Below, in pieces: positions 8,290-21,427 of a DNA stretch of 21,427 bases. The notes under the pieces are model-generated. The model made no database searches and was not told the DNA's origin. It saw nothing but the letters and a program-made list of their open reading frames with translations. The first letter of the stretch is position 1, and the number at the start of each line of letters is the position of its first letter. The position numbers and the translations under genes are program-made. The stretch spans positions 1 through 21,427 of the IMG/VR virus record IMGVR_UViG_3300047552_000480; one strand, 5' to 3'. This DNA comes from a virus.

Positions 8290-8861
8290 ACTTCCTGCAT
8301 TTTCTTAGATAGCCAGACCTGCGGATTAGCTATAAGGTCGGCTTGATACTGGAAACCAAGGTCTGTAGACAGTACAAGTTTTTGCTGGTCTGCATTTGTC
8401 CTAAGACCGGAGGCTCTAGCCAGCTTCTCGCTCATAGGGTAGCAGCGGACAGAAACGGTGCCACCGCTAGATGTGTAGGTGATAGCCATAGTGTCCATGT
8501 AGCCAGACCACACAGCGATTGGGTCGTCAATCAAGGCTCCGTTGCTCATTGGGCACATGTAGATGGACGCAGTTCGACCACGATAGGCCTCGGCCTCTCC
8601 CATTGCCAGAGCCAGAATAGTCGCATTTGCAGCGTTGAGATTCATATCGATTGCGCTGGTATCTAGCTTTTCGCTGTCCTGCACATCACTGATACTAGCC
8701 AGGTTTCCAAGCCCCGTCCACGTATAGCCGCCCCATACAAGGTCGTGGTTCCAGCTTGTAACACGTACGGCACCACCGGAGAAATCCAAGTATGCAAACA
8801 AAGCCATAGCAAAGCTACGGCTCTCAAGCGCTGTCTGTTGCCCAGTCGTTACTGTAATCAT
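8286..8861 (-). CDS. DUF2163-like minor tail / tail-hub protein
   Basis: A 191-aa protein with the features of phage DUF2163-type tail proteins. The N-terminal strand region has FAYLDFSGGAVRVTSWNHDLVWGG…YTWTGLGNL. A middle segment reads AIDMNLNAANATILALA and is followed by YRGRTASIYM. A C-terminal part follows (CYPMSEKLARASGLRTN). These proteins build the distal tail hub between the Dit ring and the tip. The gene overlaps both neighbours by 4 nt (ATGA type), which supports stoichiometric co-translation. The family is recognised by eye from sequence pattern and gene order. Confidence 0.75.
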   Translation of the reverse strand: MITVTTGQQTALESRSFAMALFAYLDFSGGAVRVTSWNHDLVWGGYTWTGLGNLASISDVQDSEKLDTSAIDMNLNAANATILALAMGEAEAYRGRTASIYMCPMSNGALIDDPIAVWSGYMDTMAITYTSSGGTVSVRCYPMSEKLARASGLRTNADQQKLVLSTDLGFQYQADLIANPQVWLSKKMQEV

Positions 8862-9478
8862 GGGCGTACATCCTCAAGCAGGTCTAGGGACATACCATCA
8901 GCTATAACAGTTGTATAGTCCCAGCCGACTATATTTACCTGTTGCCTAAATAGGGCTTTTGGTTTATCGTACGTGATAGAAGTTCCTGCTGTCATGCTGT
9001 TTCTAAGAGCAGGGTAAACACTTACCGTAGCCGTAGAAGCACCAAAAGTAGCGTCAGCCATGACCATGACCACCTGCTTAGTGATGCCGCTTCCAAACCC
9101 AATCATATCCCCCTGCTTAAAGGTCTTACCTGAAGGACTTGCGGTAGCAGCAATGACAATAGAAGTAGCTCCTGCTGACGCAGTGGAGTTGAACGTAAGG
9201 ACGTGACCACCTGTGCCAATAGTCCCTTTCGGGGTTGGTCTACCGATGTCCCACAACTCAAGTTGGTTTCGACTTCCGTCGAGTTGCATAAGCAGTGCCT
9301 TATATGGTCCGGAGTCGGTTTCCCCTACTGTTTCAAACGTCAAGGCGACTTTCCACAGTGGTGCGATGGGGCTAATCGACTGGACGCCAAAAGCCCCTCG
9401 CATGGTAATGTCCTGATCGTATCGCTCCCAGCGCATAGAGCGAACTAGGAGCGTTGTAGGAAACGTGATGACTGCCAT
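8858..9478 (-). CDS. Distal-tail (Dit)-like minor tail protein
   Basis: A 206-aa beta-rich protein. It begins with a strand region containing RWERYDQDITMRGAFGVQS. The middle (TSIVIAATASPSGKTFKQGDMIGFG) and the end (TAGTSITYDKPKALFRQQVN) resemble small beta-barrel structural domains of phage minor tail proteins. It lies directly after the tape measure, the usual place for the distal tail protein. The start overlaps the tape-measure stop by 1 nt (TAATG) and the end overlaps the DUF2163-like gene by 4 nt. The structural role is reliable. The Dit assignment comes mainly from position. Confidence 0.6.
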   Translation of the reverse strand: MAVITFPTTLLVRSMRWERYDQDITMRGAFGVQSISPIAPLWKVALTFETVGETDSGPYKALLMQLDGSRNQLELWDIGRPTPKGTIGTGGHVLTFNSTASAGATSIVIAATASPSGKTFKQGDMIGFGSGITKQVVMVMADATFGASTATVSVYPALRNSMTAGTSITYDKPKALFRQQVNIVGWDYTTVIADGMSLDLLEDVRP

Positions 9479-12400
9479 TAGATAGCCCCAGCTTGTTGCA
9501 GTTGATCCACGAGTTTAGCATTTCCAGCAGCCACCGCACGCTGAACAAGTGCCATAACTTGCGCCTGATCGGCCCTCGAATCGACGTGAATTTGTGGTGA
9601 AAACACAACAGTAGCACCAAGTCGGTTAGCCGGTGTGATATTTCCACCCTGCCCCCCTGTCATCAGGTAGTCTTTACCTCCGACAGACAGCATCTCCATG
9701 CCGCTCTCGTTTACGCGATAGCCGCTATACGGGTTGATGGTTCCGCCAGACGCCTTGCCAAGCAGACTAGCTAAATCAAATTCCCAGCTATTGAAACTAT
9801 CAATGGTCGGAATAGAAGGAGACGAGACACCGCTGCGCCCAGTAGACCAATTGAAGAGTCCTTGAAGACTGCTCTTACCAAATGCTGTATCAATAGCGCT
9901 TTCAAGCATGATCTTGAACGGACGCTCGATCAGTACCTGCTGTAAGTAGTTACGCAGTTTCTTTCCACCTTCAGCACCACCTTGGAAGATAGCCGTGCTA
10001 ACTGCGTCAGATAGTGTACCTTTAAACTCGTCAGCAAACTTTTTGTACTCTTCATCAAGAGAAGCCTTGAAGGCGCCAGCCGACTTATCAGCAGCAAACC
10101 TTGACGCATTGTTGCGCAGGCGGTCAAGAGACTCGCTAGCTTTGTTACGTAGCGTAGTGGCATTAGCATAGTTGTCTATAACCTCTGGGGAGAAGTCCCC
10201 AGCATCCATGCGCTTCTCCCACTTAGCTCTTTCAGCGTTAAGTTCCTCAACTACCCGCACGGCAGCAGAGATATTATCAGCCCATTGCTTAATCGCTTCA
10301 GCGCGTGCCTTCATGGCAGCAATCTCCTCTGGCTTCTTGCCGGCAAGCTGACCCATAGCCGCCTCTGACTCTGTAAGAGCCGATATAGCGTCTTCCAGTT
10401 TCTTTACGTCATCTCCTATAGTCTTTACCCCTTTACTTTGCTCCACAAGGTAGTCTGCTGATGACTTAATCATGCGGTTATTAATCTCCGCTGTCAGAGT
10501 CTCCGTCTCAGCCACACGTTTTTGCTCATTCATTTTCTTTGCGTGCATAAACGCACGCACTTCTAGCATGTGTGACTTGACCTTAGAGTCGTCTGTCTTT
10601 GCAATCTGGTCGTCTGTCAGCTTCAACCAAGCTTGTATGTTTTTCTCTCCAAACTCCTTACGGAGACGGTCATCCTCCTGTGCAAACTTGTTGACCTGCT
10701 CGGTATGCACCTGAGACATCAAGGCCGACTTGGCAGCCTCGTGCCTACGGATTTCCGCAAACTCTTCGTCAGCAAAATCAGCAGCAGACTTCAATCCAGC
10801 ATCATGCTGGGCCTTCAAAATCAGCATACGGTTCGTGTGCTGCCGATCCAGCACAGACGACATCTTGCTAAGCTGGTCGTTAGTCTCTTGCAGAAAGTTG
10901 GTATAGTCCTTTTGAGAATTTGCAAGTGAACGGAAGTCCGTCTTTGGCAACTTAGGACCGGTACTAGCTAGACTCTCGCGCTCAGCCTTTTCCTGTGCAG
11001 CCGCGAGCTTTGCTGCATAGGTCTTCCTAGACTCTAGGATCAGCATACTAGCCCCAAGTGCCGCCTGCTCAGACTCTAGCTCACGCAGTTTCTGCTGTGC
11101 CGCTTTTCTGGCAGCTTCTGTAGATGGGCCGTATACCCGGTCTTCTCTAAACGAAGGATCAGTGACACGCTTAGCCCTGTATGCTCCAGGTTCTGGAGGA
11201 CTATTGTCAGCTACTATCTTTTTCTGCTTGTCTATCTCTGCCTGCAGTTGTTGACCAGCAGTACGATTATTCATCTCCTTAACAGCAATCTCCTGTTGAA
11301 GTTCAAGCTGTTGCAGAGTGATGTTCTTACGGCGAGCTTCAGCCATCTTTTCTAGACGGCCAATCTCCTCGTCAAGCTTGTCGATAAGTGCTTTATTGCT
11401 TTGTGTAGCGAGTTCTGCAGACTTGTTCTTTGCCTTCTCAGCACTAAACGTAAAGATGTTCCATGCTGCGGCTGCAGCGCCAATCGCCAGAGCAAGTCCG
11501 GTAAGAATAGCTCCCCACGGTGTTGCGATAAACGCTCGGCTGAGGCCAACAGCAACCGCCATTGCTCCATTTACCCCGACAATAGCTTTATGGAAAGCCA
11601 AAGTTGAAGCTATTGCAGCACCGCCAAAGAGTGTAAGACCCTTCAGCGTCATATAGCCCAGCACGACAAGACTGAGAGCCTTACCCCACCGCATAGTTAC
11701 ATCAACCAGAGACATAACCACGTTAGCCAAACCAGCTACACTATCGCGGAAGTCCTGAGAGCGCAGGATTTCACGAAGACGTACGCTAAAATCTACGACA
11801 TATGGCTGTATCTCAGCAAAGGCGGATACCATCGCCGTACGGAAGGCGCTAGAGATGGCTAGCAACTGGTTCTGCGTGGTCAGAGACATCTCAGCAGCAG
11901 CAATGATGCTGAAGCCAGCGCTATTATTCAACTCAGCCTGAATCTTTTTATACGTATCTGCATACGTCATCAGAGCCTGTACGGGCACCTTGCCCATAGT
12001 CTCCTTGTCGTTTGCAAACTTACGAGCAAGCTCTTCGTTAGCTTGTTCAGTCTCAGTCTTGATGCGCTGGATCATCTCGATAGCGCCTTTTTCACCGCGC
12101 TCAGTAAAGATGTTTCTCAGAATATCAAACTTCTCAGGCCCCTTGAACTTATCAAGCCCACCGAGCACCTTGAGCATGATCCCATCAAGTGGGCGCATCT
12201 TGCCGCTAGCATCGATGATGTCAGTCATCTCCACGCCAAGCTTTTTAAGGGCAGCTACGGCTTTTGGTGTGCGACCAGTAAGATCGGCTAGCATGTTACG
12301 GAACGCCGTACCAGCCGCTGTACCTTGAATATTGACGTTAGACAGGGCAGCCAGAACAGTAGCAGACTCTTTTAGGGACACGCCATACTGGGTGTAAGCT

Positions 12401-14482: not shown

Positions 14483-14520
14483 ACAAAACAAAAAAGCCAG
14501 CAACATGTGTTACTGGCTTT
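14483..14520 (-). terminator. Intrinsic terminator after the G/GT chaperone genes
   Basis: The arms AAAGCCAGCAACA (14493-14505) and TGTTACTGGCTTT (14508-14520) pair with one mismatch (13 positions). On the - strand the hairpin is followed by TTTTTTGTTTT, a proper U-tract. It lies 13-40 nt past the T-ORF stop and before the tape measure, so it would reduce read-through within the tail operon. Confidence 0.8.
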
Positions 14521-14532
14521 ATGTAGCAAAGC

Positions 14533-14871
14533 TTACTTTTTGGCGTCTTTTGCTTTTTGTCTCTTATACCACTCTTCCAAATATATGTCGTCTATCATCT
14601 TCATGTATTTGTAGAACTCATACTTATCTTCTACGCCAAAGAAGTCGCAATAAGCGGCGATGTCAGTCGTACTTATTGCGATTGGATACCCTTGGTCAGT
14701 TCTACGGTCCCTAGCAATCGAGTTATACTCGTCGTAGTACCATCCAAGAATGGGACCAAGCTCTGGCTTGTTGGCTATCGCCAACGGTAGAATGCCAGAG
14801 TCTGCTGCAAACTCCAGCAACATTGACTCGCTTGAGCCCCAGTCCAGAACCCAAAGGATGTAGTCCTTTAG
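14533..14871 (-). CDS. Tail assembly chaperone T extension, made as a GT fusion by -1 frameshift
   Basis: The frame is open from just after the slippery site of gene G to the stop at 14535-14533, giving 112 residues. It is in the -1 frame relative to G. Sixteen codons beginning CTA AAG GAC and reading LKDYILWVLDWGSSES precede its first internal ATG at 14823. That ATG has no clear ribosome site. The extension contains an aromatic, acidic segment (GWYYDEYNSIARD) and ends in a basic tail (WYKRQKAKDAKK). In lambda-like siphoviruses such GT fusions carry the tape measure to the tube during tail assembly. Position right before the tape measure and the slippery heptamer support this. A separate 96-aa protein from ATG 14823 is the alternative. 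Confidence 0.8.
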   Translation of the reverse strand, partial: LKDYILWVLDWGSSESMLLEFAADSGILPLAIANKPELGPILGWYYDEYNSIARDRRTDQGYPIAISTTDIAAYCDFFGVEDKYEFYKYMKMIDDIYLEEWYKRQKAKDAKK

Positions 14872-15281
14872 TTTTTTGCGTCTTCGGCCTCTTTAACAGC
14901 CTTGAACGTACTGAAGTCTTCTGCAAGCTCAGTAATTACTTCGCGGAATTTCGGCAGAGACAGGGCTTTCTTGGCAGCGTCCACGCTGTACTCAACAGGT
15001 TCGCCGCCCTTCTCCACAACCAGCTTGCCTTTCCAGCCAAGCAGGATAGTGTGGGCCATAACGTCAGCCAGAATTTCATTCGACTTCGTTTCAGCGGCAG
15101 CACTGCCGGTCTTCAGCAGTTTCTCGTGAGGCTTGTACAGCTTCACAAAGCGGGCGCGGTACTTGCGATTGCCCCACATGGCAATCAGAAATTCGGTTTC
15201 ACCGTAGGGCACCCAAACGCCATCTTCCTCGGAAGTGGCATCAGTGGCAAATTCGGCAAACAGGTCCATAGCAGCGGTCAT
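14868..15281 (-). CDS. Tail assembly chaperone G
   Basis: A 137-aa protein with the acidic, helical look of G-type chaperones (MTAAMDLFAEFATDATSEEDG at the start, FREVITELAEDFSTFKAVKEAEDAKN at the end). The start is set at ATG 15281 because TGGAG lies five bases upstream. A longer reading from 15338 would translate through the promoter-like region and has no ribosome site. G and its frameshift product GT keep the tape measure soluble and recruit tube subunits. It follows the tail-tube gene and precedes the tape measure, as is typical. A slippery A AAA AAC lies immediately before its stop. Confidence 0.85.
   Translation of the reverse strand: MTAAMDLFAEFATDATSEEDGVWVPYGETEFLIAMWGNRKYRARFVKLYKPHEKLLKTGSAAAETKSNEILADVMAHTILLGWKGKLVVEKGGEPVEYSVDAAKKALSLPKFREVITELAEDFSTFKAVKEAEDAKN
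14871..14877 (-). other. Programmed -1 ribosomal frameshift site (A AAA AAC) in gene G
   Basis: The - strand heptamer A AAA AAC fits the X XXY YYZ rule in the zero frame (GCA AAA AAC TAA) and sits directly before the G stop. A -1 slip continues as CTA AAG GAC TAC and runs in frame into the T ORF. A hairpin AAAGGA-CTACA-TCCTTT (14869-14853) follows almost at once. The spacer is only about one nucleotide, shorter than the usual 5-9. Confidence 0.85.
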
Positions 15282-15311
15282 GAGAACTCCAGAAGGGTTA
15301 ATGAAGCCTGT

Positions 15312-15340
15312 AGTATATAGCAACAAAAAAGCCCGCACAA
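15312..15340 (-). promoter_or_regulatory. Candidate promoter for the chaperone genes
   Basis: On the - strand, TTGTGC (15340-15335) and TATACT (15317-15312) are separated by 17 nt. The -10 matches five of six consensus bases and the -35 only three. The -35 overlaps the terminator hairpin. A start near 15305 would give a short leader to ATG 15281. Confidence 0.35.
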
Positions 15341-15348
15341 GGCGGGCT
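15325..15348 (-). terminator. Intrinsic terminator after the tail-tube gene
   Basis: On the - strand the stem AGCCCGC / GCGGGCT with a 5-nt loop (CTTGT) is followed by TTTTTTG. The stem is perfect and GC-rich. It begins about 22 nt beyond the tail-tube stop (15372-15370). Confidence 0.9.
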
Positions 15349-15369
15349 CTGTTGTTTCGTAGCTACGGT

Positions 15370-16629
15370 TTACAGTGTAATAGCAGCACCGCAACGGTCG
15401 ATAATAAGAACCTTATCAAGGGAGCCGCCACGAAGCCCTGCAAACGTCACATCAACCAAAAGGTCGTTGTCCTTACCACCAGCATTGACTTTGTACGTCG
15501 ACACGTTAGCCGCAGGCAGCGTAAACACATACGCTTGACCGGTGCTATCTACTGTGCTGAACGCCAGCTCAAAGTTGCTGTTTCCGAGGAACTCTGAGAA
15601 GAAAGTGGCACCAGAGGCGAAGTACATTTGCATCGTAACCGAGCAATTGATGTTACCAGAACGAATGCCAACAGCCCCAAGGCTGCACACAGCTTCCTGC
15701 ACTGCAAGACTATTGTCGTAGTCAAGAGTGATACTCTTTGCCAGCGTTGCGGTCAACGGAGCACCACTTTTCCAAATTACACAGTTTGTAGCTGTTACGC
15801 CGGAGTGAGTTCCATACGTCAAAGACGCCAAAGACGTAGACGTACCTGTATCAAGTGTGTTGTCAGAAGCCTTAATACCCTTAGACAGCGGATTGTTAGC
15901 GCCGGAAAAGTTGAGGCCATCTTTGCCCATGAAGTCAAAACTAATCGTCGTCAAGGAGCCAGACGCGATGTTCAGTGAGAACTTGCTAGGGGTCATGCCA
16001 CGATACACCATGTACTCCAGGGGAGACATGTCATTCATCGTACGCTGGATGGAAAAGCTCGACTGCGTGGTGCCGTTAGTAAGGCGAGCAGCCTGCAAGA
16101 ACCAGTTTGCAGAAGCAACTTCCGCAATAGCAGGAGTACCTGCGTCAAGAGGGATAGACGTAGCCGTAATCGAGCTGGATGCGTGAACACGGAACAGCTT
16201 ACCGTCGTTCGTTCCGCCAGACTTTGACATGCGGAACCACTGACCAGCAACCAAGCCGTGAGTTACGCTTGCACTAAACGAAATAGCCCCGGTAGCAAAC
16301 GTAGTGGTAGTCGCGCCTATAGACACAGAACCATTAGTGCCAGAAGCTACGTAGGTGTTCTGTACAGCGCCCTGCATCAAACGGTCATACTCGCCGTGGC
16401 TGAACTCAGCCTGCACCCCGCCCTGAGCAGAGGCTGAAGTAGGCGTCTGAGACGACACAGCGCGGTTTGCGTTAATTTCAGACGACTGCGTTTTGGCGAC
16501 GGTAAAGTCAAGGGACTCGCCAGTCACCCGAAGTTCGTAGTAATTGGTGCCGGCGGCAGGCGTAACACCAAAAGTCGTTTCCGGCTTGTAGGCTACGGAA
16601 ACGCGGGAAGTGGATGCAAGGGTCGGCAT
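15370..16629 (-). CDS. Major tail tube protein
   Basis: A 419-aa beta-rich protein of the Phage_tube_2 type. The N-terminus SVAYKPETTFGVTPAAGTNY leads to a strand, then SLDFTVAKTQSSEINANR, the conserved tube-protein motif. A middle segment (PLEYMVYRGMTPSKFSLNIASG) and a C-terminal Ig-like half (from about residue 300) follow. It polymerises into the tail tube around the tape measure. The start at ATG 16629 has an AGGAG site seven bases upstream. A strong terminator follows the gene, consistent with high expression kept apart from downstream genes. Gene order (tail terminator, tube, G/GT, tape measure) is standard for siphoviruses. Confidence 0.9.
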   Translation of the reverse strand: MPTLASTSRVSVAYKPETTFGVTPAAGTNYYELRVTGESLDFTVAKTQSSEINANRAVSSQTPTSASAQGGVQAEFSHGEYDRLMQGAVQNTYVASGTNGSVSIGATTTTFATGAISFSASVTHGLVAGQWFRMSKSGGTNDGKLFRVHASSSITATSIPLDAGTPAIAEVASANWFLQAARLTNGTTQSSFSIQRTMNDMSPLEYMVYRGMTPSKFSLNIASGSLTTISFDFMGKDGLNFSGANNPLSKGIKASDNTLDTGTSTSLASLTYGTHSGVTATNCVIWKSGAPLTATLAKSITLDYDNSLAVQEAVCSLGAVGIRSGNINCSVTMQMYFASGATFFSEFLGNSNFELAFSTVDSTGQAYVFTLPAANVSTYKVNAGGKDNDLLVDVTFAGLRGGSLDKVLIIDRCGAAITL

Positions 16630-16669
16630 TTGAATGCTCCTGTCTAGGTTAGGCGTATTGTAGGAAGAT

Positions 16670-16685
16670 GCAGCCTATAGGCTAC
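16670..16685. other. Palindrome in the leader of the tail-tube gene
   Basis: The 77-nt gap before the tail-tube gene contains the perfect palindrome AGCCTATAGGCT (16672-16683), extendable to GCAGCC…GGCTAC with one G-T pair. It has no U-tract. It could be an operator-like site or an RNA hairpin in the leader. Confidence 0.4.
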
Positions 16686-16706
16686 CGGAAAATGTAACAA
16701 AAACGC

Positions 16707-17117
16707 TTAGTTGTCATACCAGAACGGGATAACAGCGCTTTTACCAAACCAGTCCTTACTCGGTTTGGCATTTACAAGCTTTGCAGCACTTGTACGAACT
16801 GGGGGCATTGCATCACTCATGTGCAGACTTGGGTAGAAGTGTGCCAGCAAATCGTTCGCTGGCTTATCGCCTGACCCACGATGCACCCAAGCCGTCAGGA
16901 TGATGGAACCGTAAACCCTATGAGCCGCGTCTGGACCAAGGCTTGCTTGCTCCCCGTCAATCAACATAATCTCGACGGACAAGTACGGGCTGACTTGTGT
17001 GCCAAGGTTCACAAGGTTTCTGTTATCATACTCTACCGCTAGGGTGTAGGCAGACCACGTAGCCGCTAGGGCTTTAACGGCTGTAACTATTGCAACTCGT
17101 GCGGTTTCTGCGCTCAT
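16707..17117 (-). CDS. Tail terminator / completion protein (gpU-like)
   Basis: A 136-aa protein with an N-terminal helix (ARVAIVTAVKALAATW). It has strands typical of tail terminator proteins: YLSVEIMLIDGEQASLG, then RVYGSIILTAWVHRGSGDKPAND, then LLAHFYPSLH. These cap the tube at the head-proximal end. The order (connector proteins, this gene, then tail tube) supports the call. ATG 17117 overlaps the upstream TGA by 4 nt. Confidence 0.75.
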   Translation of the reverse strand: MSAETARVAIVTAVKALAATWSAYTLAVEYDNRNLVNLGTQVSPYLSVEIMLIDGEQASLGPDAAHRVYGSIILTAWVHRGSGDKPANDLLAHFYPSLHMSDAMPPVRTSAAKLVNAKPSKDWFGKSAVIPFWYDN

Positions 17118-17737
17118 TTAGCACCAGACTTTGCATTATTGTTAAAGATACCGCCCATAGCAGGACGCAAATAGTGGTACTTTCCATACTTCATAAGAGC
17201 GTACTCCACCATAGCAATACCATGAGCAGGCACATTTGGTCCATGGAACTTGTTCACATCTCGAATCGCAAGTGCTCCATCCTCGCCCTGTGGCCCTTCT
17301 CCGATTTCCACCTCTTCGGCATATGGAGTCGTGTTGACGATACGAATCAGCGAGTTCCACTTGACGTGAGGAACTTGTTTCGTAAACGCACCAAACCCGT
17401 ACGTAATCGTGTCCATACTGTTCACGACTTTGTACCCTCGGCTAAGAGCCATACTGACTGCTGGATCGCTACCAGCGCGAAATGGAACAAAATCTGAACC
17501 CTTGTGCGGTGGATGCTTATCTTTCTGTGTGTAGGTAGAAGTCCCAAGTGAAGAACCACCAACTTCTACGTGCCAATTCGCAGCAAGATTGCCTGACCAC
17601 TGTGGTGTATGTACAACAATGTCCCGGAATACAGTCCAGACGAAGTTCTTCTTGGCTTCCGTGACACTAATCTCGTAAGCCTTCGCTGCATTCTGCAGCT
17701 TCTTTAGTGTTGTATCAAGCCCCGTGACTTTAAGCAT
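17114..17737 (-). CDS. HK97 gp10-like neck / head-tail joining protein
   Basis: A 207-aa protein. An N-terminal helix (GLDTTLKKLQNAAKAYEISV) is followed by FRDIVVHTPQWSGNLAANWHVEVGG, the typical HTPxxSGxLxxxW motif of HK97 gp10-like connector proteins. Near the end is TTPYAEEVEIG…YHYLRPAM. These proteins join the connector to the tail. ATG 17737 abuts the preceding TAA without a gap. Confidence 0.85.
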   Translation of the reverse strand: MLKVTGLDTTLKKLQNAAKAYEISVTEAKKNFVWTVFRDIVVHTPQWSGNLAANWHVEVGGSSLGTSTYTQKDKHPPHKGSDFVPFRAGSDPAVSMALSRGYKVVNSMDTITYGFGAFTKQVPHVKWNSLIRIVNTTPYAEEVEIGEGPQGEDGALAIRDVNKFHGPNVPAHGIAMVEYALMKYGKYHYLRPAMGGIFNNNAKSGAK

Positions 17738-18568
17738 TTACACCCTCTGCAAGTGGCAAAGGTAGGCATCCAGATGCGGTATAACCTGAGCAACGCGCCA
17801 AGACCCGCTAGCCGACACAGACGCTCCGACTTTAGGAGTTACTGCGCTGGCGGCTACCAGAAGCGTTTTATCCCCCGGTTTGTTCGTAGGGTCTGACTCT
17901 GTTTTGTAGGCGTACAGCTTATACATATCCATAAGCAGGCCAGTAGTAACAACCGGCACGCCCCCGTAACTATCGGTAATGGGGTCATACGTACCAAGCT
18001 CTGTAAAGGTTACTGCAACTTCAGCAGCCTCAATTTCGTCAACTTCGGCTACCTTGAAACCCTCAAGCAGTTCGTGAGTGCCCCTCACGTTGTAGTACTT
18101 GCCGTATGAGCGCAGTATGTAGCCCTTGTTTACGGTCTCACTGCTGCTAAAACTCACCTCATACTGAGAGTCATACTCGCTGTCGGTTGGACTGTTTACC
18201 GTAGACTTCAGATAGTCTTTCTGGCCGTACGCTTCCACACCATTCAAGGTCAAGCATGCGTCTCCAGGAGTGCGAATCATGAATTTTTCATCACACCGTT
18301 TAGCAGCGACACTTGTGCGTAGGGCTGTGCCCTGCAGGTAATCCTTAATACCATCGCCAACAATCCACACCTCGTTGCCGTACTTCAAGGCGCGGCGTGT
18401 AGGCAGGGTGATGCTAGGATCAAGCGAGATTGTGCGACGGCGCGAGATCGTGCCGTCCACTTGGGAATCTATGTAAGCCGCAACTTGGGCTTTGAAAAGA
18501 AAGACGTTCGTGTAGGCGTCTCTAACGACTACATCGTCAAAGTATCTGCTGGCATCTACAAGGCGCAT
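17738..18568 (-). CDS. Head-tail joining / head-closure protein (unrecognised family)
   Basis: A 276-aa mostly beta protein. The N-terminal part has RRRTISLDPSITLPTRRALKYG and EVWIVGDGIKDYL, resembling head-closure (stopper) proteins with a barrel domain. The middle has acidic and Ser/Tyr-rich loops, and the C-terminus SGSWRVAQVIPHLDAYLCHLQ ends in strands. It lies between the adaptor-like gene and the gp10-like gene, where a stopper is expected. ATG 18568 overlaps the previous stop by 1 nt (TAATG). The family is not recognised and the role comes from position. Confidence 0.55.
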   Translation of the reverse strand: MRLVDASRYFDDVVVRDAYTNVFLFKAQVAAYIDSQVDGTISRRRTISLDPSITLPTRRALKYGNEVWIVGDGIKDYLQGTALRTSVAAKRCDEKFMIRTPGDACLTLNGVEAYGQKDYLKSTVNSPTDSEYDSQYEVSFSSSETVNKGYILRSYGKYYNVRGTHELLEGFKVAEVDEIEAAEVAVTFTELGTYDPITDSYGGVPVVTTGLLMDMYKLYAYKTESDPTNKPGDKTLLVAASAVTPKVGASVSASGSWRVAQVIPHLDAYLCHLQRV

Positions 18569-19059
18569 TACTCATTCGTCACCGGGTTTACGGCGAGCCC
18601 TGTAGAAGTTGAGAACGTAACAACCCTAGTTACTGTCGTCACAGTCGTGCCAACACCAGCCAAGGCGCTAACCAGTCGGTCTTTCAGGGAAATCAAGCCA
18701 GCGTCTACACCTTCACGAACGTCCTCAAACGGGTCCACAACCCTCTCAGTCTCTGCCCGTCCATCAGTAATTCGGCGTGGAGCAAATAGGGCAACGCTTG
18801 TGAGCAATGTTTTTGCTACGGCGTAGGGTGCGTAAACCTGCATAACATCGTATAGCCTCTGCTGGGCCGTAGTACGAGATGCAAGGGCAGCGATTGTCAG
18901 GTACGTGGACTCAAGAGTCCCATCAATGTCGCTCAATGCAAACTGCAGTTGCCGCAGGTACATAGGCATAGCAAGAACTTCATCCCGAAGTTCTTCAGGA
19001 GCTACCCCAAGGACGGCCCGCACTTCGTCAGGCGTCGTGAATTGAGCAAGTGTCGTCAT
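18568..19059 (-). CDS. Head-tail connector (adaptor)-like protein
   Basis: A 163-aa, largely helical protein (TTPDEVRAVLGVAPEELRDEVL, then LRQLQFALSDIDGTLE, then TAQQRLYDVMQVYAPYAVAKTLLTSVALF). The TPDEVRAVLGV start and the paired long helices resemble HK97 gp6-type adaptor proteins that bind under the portal. The C-terminus is Thr/Val-rich and extended. There is no Shine-Dalgarno before ATG 19059, and a 6-bp hairpin (19069-19085) lies ten bases upstream. Role is inferred from fold pattern and position. Confidence 0.6.
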   Translation of the reverse strand: MTTLAQFTTPDEVRAVLGVAPEELRDEVLAMPMYLRQLQFALSDIDGTLESTYLTIAALASRTTAQQRLYDVMQVYAPYAVAKTLLTSVALFAPRRITDGRAETERVVDPFEDVREGVDAGLISLKDRLVSALAGVGTTVTTVTRVVTFSTSTGLAVNPVTNE

Positions 19060-19068
19060 TGTGGGACT

Positions 19069-19085
19069 GTAGCCTACTTGGCTAC
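19069..19085. other. Short intergenic hairpin before the adaptor-like gene
   Basis: GTAGCC (19069-19074) and GGCTAC (19080-19085) pair perfectly around a 5-nt loop. There is no U-tract. It lies in the 39-nt gap before a gene that lacks a visible Shine-Dalgarno. Confidence 0.35.
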
Positions 19086-19098
19086 TTAGTGGGCGTCA

Positions 19099-19302
19099 TT
19101 ACGCCTTTTTTGCTACTTTAGCCTCGGGCTGTTTCGCCAGAGGGTCAGCAACACGTTGAAAAGTGGGCTGGGACTTGATCCAGTCTGTCAGCTTGGCTCG
19201 GGTAACTTCGCCGGGCTGAAAGGTTGTGTTAGTGGTTGGGTCAGTAAACGAGTACTTGCCAGTGTTGACAAGCCACTCTCCGTCTGTGTGTACGATTCTC
19301 AT
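19099..19302 (-). CDS. Small protein of unknown function in the head-tail region
   Basis: A 67-aa protein. The N-terminal part is strand-rich (MRIVHTDGEWLVNTGKYSF). A short proline/threonine loop (DPTTNTTFQPGEVTRA) is followed by a helix (KLTDWIKSQPTFQRV) and a lysine-rich tail (EAKVAKKA). It has a good ribosome site (AAAGGAA) and a candidate promoter, so it is a real gene. It lies first in the connector operon. Small proteins at this place can be head-tail joining or decoration factors, but nothing in the sequence names it. Confidence 0.6.
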   Translation of the reverse strand: MRIVHTDGEWLVNTGKYSFTDPTTNTTFQPGEVTRAKLTDWIKSQPTFQRVADPLAKQPEAKVAKKA

Positions 19303-19324
19303 GGTGTGTTCCTTTGGAGGGCTA

Positions 19325-19354
19325 ACTGTACTTTGGGCTTTTCGTGCTGGTCAA
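19325..19354 (-). promoter_or_regulatory. Candidate sigma70-like promoter for the connector/tail operon
   Basis: On the - strand TTGACC (19354-19349, five of six matches) and TACAGT (19330-19325, four of six) are 18 nt apart. Start would be near 19318, giving a short leader with the AAAGGAA site before ATG 19302. It is needed because the terminator at 21107-21136 would cut transcription coming from the capsid gene. Confidence 0.5.
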
Positions 19355-19388
19355 CGGATTCGTAACACTTCCGTCGGGTTGTCGTTTG

Positions 19389-19397
19389 TGGTACACT
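19389..19397 (+). promoter_or_regulatory. Candidate extended -10 promoter for the endonuclease gene
   Basis: TGGTACACT: an extended -10 TG followed by TACACT. No -35 was found 16-18 nt upstream. A small hairpin (ACTGC…GCAGT, 19394-19408) and GGAG (19416-19419) follow before ATG 19430. Confidence 0.3.
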
Positions 19398-19429
19398 GCA
19401 GTTCGCAGTAAATTTGGAGTTCACGTGAA

Positions 19430-21106
19430 ATGGGCATGACGTACGAGGAATTCGTGGCAACAGCTACGGAAAAATTTAATGGACGGTACACGTACCTACG
19501 CCAAGGCGAGTATAGGCACAAGGAGCGCACAGTTGTGTATACGTGTCCAGAGCATGGTGAGGTTACGCAGAAATTCTCACAGCATCTTAAACTGGGGTGC
19601 GGCAAGTGTGGGATTAAAGCTGCAAACCTAGCTAAACGCTGGAATCTAGAAGAGTGGGTAGCTAAAATTGGCGATAAATTTGATCACAGGTACACGTACA
19701 CGTCTGCTGATAAAGTGGGGGTAATAACATACATCATATACACCTGCCCAGAACATGGCGAAATTAGGCAGTCGTTTCAGGCACACCTGAATAGTACGTA
19801 CGGGTGTCCGAAGTGCTCTCTCAGGAATATGCCTGTCAAGCAGAAGAGCCTACCTTCAGAATGGGATGCCAAGGGTAAACACCTATTCGGTGAGAAGTTT
19901 CTTGGTACTGTGCTGTCGTCAAAGCCCACTATGTTTAGATTTGTGTGCGACACACACGGAGAGACAATGGTTAATGCGTATCAAGCTGCTAAGGGTCGAA
20001 GGTGTAAACACTGCGCTAGAGAAAACTATAGCGGCGGAAAAAGAGTGCGTTGGACGCCAGAGTTTGAAACGCACCTACACAAGATACACAATAACTCGTA
20101 CACCTATGTAGGGCTTAGCAACACTTTTGGAGAAAAAACACACATAATGTATGAGTGCGAACATCACGGTGTCGTGGAACAGGCACTTAATGACCACGTA
20201 CGCGGGCACGGGTGCACCAAGTGTGCCGGAAGAACGTCTAAGGGTCATATGGAAATACACGAGTACCTGGCCGGCCTAGGTTTGGCACCACAGGGGGAAG
20301 TGCGCTTAGGCTCCTCTAAATTTTTCTGGGACATCGTTATACCAGAGAAAAGTATTGCAATTGAGTTTCATGGGCTATACTGGCATAGCTCAAAATACCG
20401 GGCTAACAACTATCACAAGATAAAACACGAAGAAGGTTTACAAGTCGGCTATCGCACCATTCACATATTCGAGGATGAGTGGACGAACAGGAAGCAACAA
20501 GTCAAGGCTTTGCTGGCATCGGCTGTAGGCGTAAATACCTCTAGTGGGTCTACCTATGCCCGCTCCTGCACTATTTCCTCAGTAGTCGCTTCGGAGGCAA
20601 GAGAATTCTTAGAGCAGCACCACGTACAGGGTTTTAGGTCGGGAAGTCACTACATCGGGCTGTATAACCAAGGTGAGCTAGTTGGGGTTCTGGGGTACGA
20701 GTTCCGAAAGTCCGGAAGAGGTCAGACGACGACACTTGAGAGCATGGAGATAACAAGGTATGCCACGTCTACGCATGTAGTCGGTGGTATGAGCAAGCTG
20801 ATGTCACATCTTGTCAAAATAACGCCAGAGCTTAAAGAGGTGTACTCATTTAGCGATATACGGATGTACTCTGGCAATTTGTACGCTGCCTGCGGTTTTA
20901 CACAGGTATACTCAACAGCACCGGATTACAGCTACGTCGTTAACGGCAAACGAATTCACAAGTCCAGCTACCAAAAGTCGCGGTTCAAGTCGGACCCAAA
21001 TCTCCAGTACGCTGATGGACTAACTGAGGTTGAACTTGCCGAGCTAAACAACCTATATCGCATCTACGACTGCGGAAAAGTGAAGTGGGTGAAAAAGGTC
21101 AGGTAA
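19430..21106 (+). CDS. Probable homing endonuclease: four zinc-finger repeats, Vsr/EDxHD-like nuclease, GNAT-like C-terminal domain
   Basis: A 558-aa protein in three parts. Residues 1-265 hold four repeats, each with C-x2-H then C-x2-C (C39/H42/C57/C60; C106/H109/C126/C129; C173/H176/C192/C195; C243/H246/C262/C265), DUF723-like and probably DNA-binding. About 266-365 is a Vsr-related EDxHD-like nuclease, with WDIVIPE (D301), IEFHGLYWHS (E312, H314, H319) and TIHIFEDEW. About 376-558 looks GNAT-like: VGVLGYE, VVGGMSKL, and GNLYAACGF, the typical N-x-Y-x3-GF signature. It is the only + strand gene here among late genes and has its own terminator, which fits a mobile intron-less endonuclease. 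A GGAG site lies ten bases before ATG 19430. ATG 19436 is an alternative start. Function of the C-terminal domain is unknown. Confidence 0.8.
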   Translation: MGMTYEEFVATATEKFNGRYTYLRQGEYRHKERTVVYTCPEHGEVTQKFSQHLKLGCGKCGIKAANLAKRWNLEEWVAKIGDKFDHRYTYTSADKVGVITYIIYTCPEHGEIRQSFQAHLNSTYGCPKCSLRNMPVKQKSLPSEWDAKGKHLFGEKFLGTVLSSKPTMFRFVCDTHGETMVNAYQAAKGRRCKHCARENYSGGKRVRWTPEFETHLHKIHNNSYTYVGLSNTFGEKTHIMYECEHHGVVEQALNDHVRGHGCTKCAGRTSKGHMEIHEYLAGLGLAPQGEVRLGSSKFFWDIVIPEKSIAIEFHGLYWHSSKYRANNYHKIKHEEGLQVGYRTIHIFEDEWTNRKQQVKALLASAVGVNTSSGSTYARSCTISSVVASEAREFLEQHHVQGFRSGSHYIGLYNQGELVGVLGYEFRKSGRGQTTTLESMEITRYATSTHVVGGMSKLMSHLVKITPELKEVYSFSDIRMYSGNLYAACGFTQVYSTAPDYSYVVNGKRIHKSSYQKSRFKSDPNLQYADGLTEVELAELNNLYRIYDCGKVKWVKKVR

Positions 21107-21136
21107 AAATAAAGCCCTCCGAAGAGGGCTTTATTT
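21107..21136. terminator. Bidirectional intrinsic terminator between endonuclease and capsid genes
   Basis: Perfect 13-bp stem AAATAAAGCCCTC (21107-21119), CGAA tetraloop, right arm 21124-21136. It reads TTTATTT after the GC part on the + strand and TTTATTTTTA on the - strand. It starts at the endonuclease stop and lies 15 nt past the capsid gene stop, so it serves both. Confidence 0.9.
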
Positions 21137-21151: not shown

Positions 21152-21427
21152 TTAGGCGATAGTCAGCACATCAAACGGCTTGAGTTCGCTGTCGCCTGCA
21201 GTCCGATAAACGGCCTCGGACCAGTGCATAACCATGGCTTCCGACCGGCGCAGAGCGAACGTCTCCGCAGCGGTGTAGTTCGCCGAGGTGTTGCTAACGC
21301 GGGTGATAGCTTGAGCAGCATCAATCGCGTACACGGTATTGGCAGGAACCGGACCACCATCAGCAGCAGAGTCGACGATGAACCACTGGACATTGTTGCC
21401 AAAGCCCACGTTCATTGCCACAGCCTG
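21152..21427 (-). CDS. C-terminus of the probable major capsid protein (partial)
   Basis: An open frame enters from the right edge (first full codons read QAVAMNVGFG) and stops at 21152, giving the last 91 residues. The GTG at 21421 is most likely internal, not a start. The end, with FALRRSEAMVMHWSEAVYRTAGDSELKPFDVLTIA, resembles capsid C-termini where the chain closes with a strand such as KPFDVLTI. Its place just before the connector genes, and the strong terminator behind it, agree with a major capsid protein. No other domain can be seen because the rest lies outside the window. Confidence 0.5.
   Translation of the reverse strand, partial: QAVAMNVGFGNNVQWFIVDSAADGGPVPANTVYAIDAAQAITRVSNTSANYTAAETFALRRSEAMVMHWSEAVYRTAGDSELKPFDVLTIA

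Follow-up and report, generated by a model that had tools for sequence, protein, structure and literature searches.

A Hef-type homing endonuclease gene with a Mom-related GNAT domain, inserted beside a phage head protein gene

The window, the whole 21,427-nucleotide stretch of viral DNA that was analyzed, carries an open reading frame of 558 aa at 19430-21106 that starts with ATG and is intact to its stop. It is flanked on one side by the 3' end of the gene for the major head protein and on the other by a late gene of 67 aa, and it faces the late genes. The features of the locus and of the encoded homing endonuclease (HEN) are as follows.

19099..19302, minus strand: next late gene, 67 aa, one flank of the insertion (homologues lie just downstream of the head gene in the HEN-less contigs L083-L086)
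19416..19419, plus strand: ribosome-binding site GGAG, with the ATG 10 nt downstream (direct reading)
19430..21106, plus strand: Hef-type homing endonuclease gene, 558 aa (phrog_559, phrog_3339, homology to U5 Hef)
19544..19609, plus strand: zinc-binding repeat 1, C39-x2-H42..C57-x2-C60 (sequence; Pfam DUF723/CapR)
19745..19816, plus strand: zinc-binding repeat 2, C106-x2-H109..C126-x2-C129 (best DUF723 stretch, 72-130)
19946..20014, plus strand: zinc-binding repeat 3, C173-x2-H176..C192-x2-C195 (sequence; invariant residues among relatives)
20156..20224, plus strand: zinc-binding repeat 4, C243-x2-H246..C262-x2-C265 (sequence; invariant residues among relatives)
20231..20524, plus strand: EDxHD/Vsr-type nuclease domain, residues 268-365 (profile match to 3r3p; invariant residues)
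20549..21103, plus strand: Mom-related GNAT domain, residues 374-558 (Pfam Mom, AF2, Foldseek, VIA, hhalign)
20621..20623, plus strand: H398, counterpart of Mom H58 (H48 in the 231-aa numbering), conserved in HENs and bacterial relatives
20747..20758, plus strand: E440..R443, counterpart of Mom E108..R111 (ELNR), from alignment with Moms
20777..20797, plus strand: V450-K456 (VVGGMSK), putative acyl-CoA pyrophosphate loop (conservation; strand-to-helix turn in the model)
20855..20884, plus strand: D476..Y485, counterpart of Mom D149..Y159 (SFAD..Y), from alignment, 73/73 each
21107..21136, no strand assigned: perfect inverted repeat AAATAAAGCCCTC-CGAA-GAGGGCTTTATTT between convergent genes (direct reading)
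21152..21427, minus strand: major head protein gene, 3' end, the other flank (full-length genes in L083/L086 match phrog_3922)

The inverted repeat is a probable two-way terminator serving both convergent genes. It is not among the terminators listed by the terminator scan, and two sub-threshold sRNA matches in Rfam both fall on this hairpin. A group I intron enclosing the HEN gene was rejected, the Rfam search giving zero matches at gathering score. The scan for a sigma-70 promoter upstream of the gene did no better than chance. Foreign base composition was also considered; the GC content is 0.478 against 0.510, but there is no clear compositional signal because third-position GC falls inside the neighbors' range or close to it. 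PADLOC, searched for a phage defense system, returned nothing beyond a generic homing endonuclease match. Elsewhere in the window a gene at 204-2264, on the other strand from the late genes, encodes a 686-aa SbcC/RecF-like ATPase.

The gene is free-standing and occupies a conserved intergenic site in some genomes but not in others. Six viral contigs from three lineages (L083-L088) lack the insert, and their head gene directly adjoins the next late gene. Contig L001 carries a HEN of 39% identity at the same place; the homologous late genes there are 34-74% identical, so the insert occupies a common site and has diverged about as much as its neighbors. Loci were retrieved with the head-gene fragment as bait but not with the connector protein (18568-19059), and the neighborhood 14500-19400 has zero DNA-level relatives among cultured phages. 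Acinetobacter phage Kimel has a Hef-type gene (L142:907-2334) on the opposite strand, flanked by gp24 and by gp23, the gene for the major capsid protein; here too a capsid gene adjoins the insertion, which is independent of that in the window. Five other contigs (L034, L042, L045, L056, L074) hold two to four Hef-type genes within ~10 kb, on both strands. In L083 an 807-aa ORF (8703-11126) separates the homologues of the tail terminator and the tail tube; the window lacks this ORF at that place.

The N-terminal part consists of the four zinc-binding repeats. Pfam DUF723 (2.2e-11) and CapR (3.1e-6) both match the 558-aa protein above threshold. In an alignment with 67 relatives, C173, H176, G177, C192 and C195 of repeat 3 and C243, H246 and C265 of repeat 4 are invariant. 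The nuclease residues of the window protein are D301, E312, G315, H319, H329, K332 and F347-W351. Among the same 67 relatives E312, G315, H319, H329, K332, F347 and D349-W351 are invariant and D301 nearly so, and the window protein keeps them all. A profile of 36 relatives matches the PDB structure of I-Bth0305I (3r3p) with E 5.6e-6, whereas the window sequence by itself gives a weak match (E 0.016) and scores 21.7 bits against Pfam MTES_1575, under the cut-off of 38.2. The window protein thus has a nuclease core of the EDxHD/Vsr type, in which acidic and histidine residues are conserved. The sequence-only reading had named four repeats, a Vsr/EDxHD-like nuclease and GNAT-like motifs, and all were borne out, by the motifs, the 3r3p profile and Pfam Mom, far beyond chance.

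The whole protein matches phrog_559 (E 4.4e-91) and phrog_3339, homing endonuclease (4.2e-80). In phage records, 819 match the whole protein and 406 the C-terminal domain; the gap would be due mainly to zinc repeats common to other homing endonuclease genes (HEGs). The T4-like gene L136 aligns with residues 206-551 of the window protein (30% over 365 aa, E 2e-33), and its DNA is 99.6% identical to phage U5 hef across 1590 aligned bases. In the U5 record AY262133.2 the gene order is nrdA-hef-nrdB. Hef is reported to cleave nrdB (PMC2988022), and to have endonuclease activity but no similarity to known homing endonucleases (PMC3322345); cutting of the gene-less allele near the own locus is reported for U5 Hef only. 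The domains found here, an EDxHD nuclease and a Mom-related GNAT, place Hef. Homology to U5 Hef across the nuclease and the C-terminal domain argues for Hef-type membership, and the window gene is almost certainly a Hef-type HEG carrying a Mom-related GNAT domain.

The GNAT-like motifs are VVGGMSKLM at residues 450-458 and GNLYAACGF at 482-490. Pfam Mom (PF25680) matches the protein at 1.3e-10 with 41.7 bits, against a gathering cut-off of 27.1, and residues 371-558 used alone as query match the Mom-like phrog_1384 at 3.4e-12. The structure of residues 365-558 was predicted by AlphaFold2, with 73 relatives, at pLDDT 91.4. In the PDB, Foldseek ranks crystallized Mu Mom S124A (8bv8) first, with 2.0e-9, followed by GNAT-kind acetyltransferases; 170 PDB chains match at E <= 0.001, with acetyltransferases in every row among the matches listed. 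Against Mom, VIA-align scores Z 13.4 across 149 residues; other GNATs reach Z 12-14, many of them 12.5-13.8. The fold is therefore of the GNAT superfamily, and the GNAT/Mom call survived this check against a non-GNAT fold. Structure alone cannot single out Mom because many GNATs score level with it by VIA Z; unlike structure, sequence profiles do favor Mom among GNATs. Aligned by hhalign with 14 standalone Moms, drawn from annotated phage records since a Mu Mom query of IMG/VR yielded near-copies only, the fused domains gave E 4.5e-15.

The alignment with Moms pairs H58, E108, R111, D149 and Y159 (241-aa numbering) with H398, E440, R443, D476 and Y485. In 73 fused domains H398, R443, D476 and Y485 are present in 73/73 and E440 in 71/73, and G452 and K/R456 of the putative loop are also 73/73. 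H398 is kept in these 73 HENs, in 24/24 of a diverse set and in 31/31 bacterial relatives. The 73 sequences were fetched partly by motifs that include EQHHVQGF, which may inflate H398 conservation; that motif was not used for the phage-record set, part of a wider set, or for the genome search. In the wider set U5 Hef, Kimel and several more proteins have Asn in place of D476, with the H, R and Y unchanged. We take the Mom active-site set to be H58, Y59, E108, R111, D149 and Y159; S124 was instead taken from 8bv8, where it is the residue mutated in the inactive Mom. The Y59 position is I/L/V/M in HENs, the W-x2-DD-x-P-x-N-x-ES loop of Mom is missing, and S124 aligns loosely with T448. A maximum-likelihood tree separates Moms from Hef-type domains by a long branch with support of 100/100. 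The domain thus has the PF25680 score of the Mom family proper, but neither its full active-site set nor a place in the Mom clade. Because of the Y59 and S124-loop differences and the fully supported split it is named Mom-related GNAT rather than Mom; it belongs to a clade sister to Mom.

Zinc repeats are the most variable part of these proteins and the GNAT domain the most conserved, with a mean identity of 0.37 in the repeats against 0.52 in the nuclease and 0.53 in the GNAT domain. The dN/dS of the GNAT part among close relatives is mostly 0.03-0.2, up to 0.38 for the closest pairs. It is about that of the nuclease and usually below that of the zinc repeats.

A search for other proteins with the C-terminal domain, as had been suggested, returned chromosomal Bacteroidota proteins in addition to the 406 phage records. 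These proteins of 260-285 aa, found by a GNAT-profile scan of bacterial genomes, come from Pedobacter, Persicobacter, Lacihabitans and one Cyclobacteriaceae bin (L163, L165-L171, L173-L197). By profile comparison, the Hef-type nuclease is recognizable in their first ~100 residues (E 7.6e-10, against 0.029 for a reversed control). The nuclease catalytic residues are lost, zinc repeats are absent, and the HEN-typical tail residues Y500, Y502, R508 and K516 are also lost. H398, E440, R443, G452, G453 and D476 are kept in 31/31 and Y485 in 27/31, and dN/dS of the GNAT part is 0.03-0.09. With Mom as outgroup, the tree places the branch among HENs. Of 101 Pedobacter-family genomes sampled, about half carry a copy, almost always single. 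A miaA-like gene adjoins the bacterial relative in 24/31 sequences examined, and the three that were tested are miaA. The product of miaA modifies tRNA adenine-37 at N6. The branch looks like a domesticated Hef that retained GNAT activity and lost cutting. Since it kept the GNAT residues and lost those of the nuclease, real acyl-transfer chemistry is favored over mere DNA binding.

The observed domains, family, insertion, conserved pocket residues and selection can be joined in one explanation, a homing endonuclease with an active Mom-sister GNAT acting near the bound site, to which we give a probability of about 0.5. The zinc repeats would locate a long stretch of DNA close to where the gene itself lies. 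By homology to Hef, the EDxHD nuclease would cleave phage genomes in which the gene is missing, and repair by recombination would then copy the HEN gene into them. The GNAT domain, with its pocket assessed on sequence alone, is probably catalytically active; it would most likely still bind acyl-CoA and transfer an acyl-derived group. The target would be a base near the bound site, by analogy with Mom the N6 of adenine; that the product is a modified DNA base has slightly less than an even chance. Such a modification may mark or shield the DNA that carries the gene. T4-like phages such as U5 already have heavily modified DNA, which counts against this explanation, as do the Asn of U5 Hef and Kimel at D476, the missing Mom features and the split between Hef-type domains and Mom in the tree.

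Alternatively, the GNAT domain could be catalytically dead and serve the nuclease as a structural or DNA-positioning platform, its conserved residues holding DNA or the fold. U5 Hef, for which endonuclease activity is reported, has Asn in the pocket, so Asp at D476 is dispensable for that activity, and HENs have kept neither Mom Y59 nor the loop specific to Mom. Y500, Y502, R508 and K516 look like DNA contacts, in keeping with their loss from the nuclease-dead branch. On the other hand H398, R443, G452 and Y485 are present in every phage HEN examined, and bacterial proteins without zinc repeats or a working nuclease keep the pocket while losing the tail, which fits chemistry better. A recognition module is expected to be the most variable part, but the GNAT part is the least variable. 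A dead platform is judged somewhat unlikely. The earlier suggestion that the domain had become a DNA-recognition module is less likely, given how variable the zinc repeats are, how conserved the GNAT part is and that the nuclease-dead branch keeps the GNAT site; the conserved active-site residues agree with the suggestion that it could modify something.

A one-protein restriction-modification weapon, in which the GNAT would modify phage DNA and the nuclease attack unmodified host or competitor DNA, is what has been predicted in print for this architecture (PMC7824862), and both catalytic sites are conserved. It is improbable here because the gene acts as a mobile insert at a single site, Hef acts close to its own locus, and the zinc repeats vary strongly between homologues, as expected of locus-specific recognition. 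Acylation of a protein or tRNA instead of DNA is very improbable: many N-terminal protein acetyltransferases match the fold equally (VIA Z 13.8 against 13.4 for Mom) and the bacterial relatives adjoin miaA, but sequence profiles favor Mom and the GNAT domain of HENs is tied to a DNA-binding nuclease.

Returning to the homing endonuclease with an active GNAT, a wider and rather doubtful extension is that Hef-family HENs are selfish elements that cut and tag with one polypeptide and were exapted in Bacteroidota as an acyltransferase beside miaA, perhaps modifying RNA or DNA adenine. Should the GNAT domain prove active, some homing endonucleases would both cut DNA and mark it chemically, an overlap of homing with restriction-modification. 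A model system exists in T4-like phages with hef and E. coli K-12, and the GNAT question is thus directly testable.

Among known systems, T5orf172 HEGs have a GIY-YIG-type nuclease and are not known to carry a GNAT, unlike the window protein. Those with CapR/DUF723 repeats share its kind of zinc-finger DNA-binding repeats (PMC10448857). I-Bth0305I (3r3p) has the nuclease core in common but is intron-encoded according to a review, which does not mention a GNAT domain. Mu Mom (8bv8, PF25680) shares the GNAT fold, with H, E, R, D and Y in matching positions around the active site; it differs in standing alone, in its HY, its W-DD-P-N-ES loop and S124, and in its separate clade (100/100). The combination of domains was already known: Iyer et al. 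2021 described jumbo-phage fusions of Mom domains to nucleases of the REase fold (PMC7824862), one public record names such a gene nuclease/acetyltransferase, and the domain occurs in hundreds of phage records, U5 Hef included. Annotated homing endonucleases of PA5oct, named in that paper, match the window GNAT model. Its authors read the fusions as restriction-modification, whereas the window locus shows presence and absence at one site. No description of the Hef link or of the nuclease-dead bacterial branch was found in the literature searched; the Hef link, the near-invariant Mom-type active-site residues, the low dN/dS and the Bacteroidota family beside miaA are added here. U5 Hef, and also Hef-like F-LimX and RaK2 hef, resemble the window protein in being free-standing, with an EDxHD nuclease and a Mom-related GNAT, and like the window gene they adjoin conserved essential genes. 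U5 Hef differs in its N-terminus, where DUF723/CapR repeats were not detected, in the N at the D476 position, and in its insertion at nrdA-nrdB rather than at the head gene.
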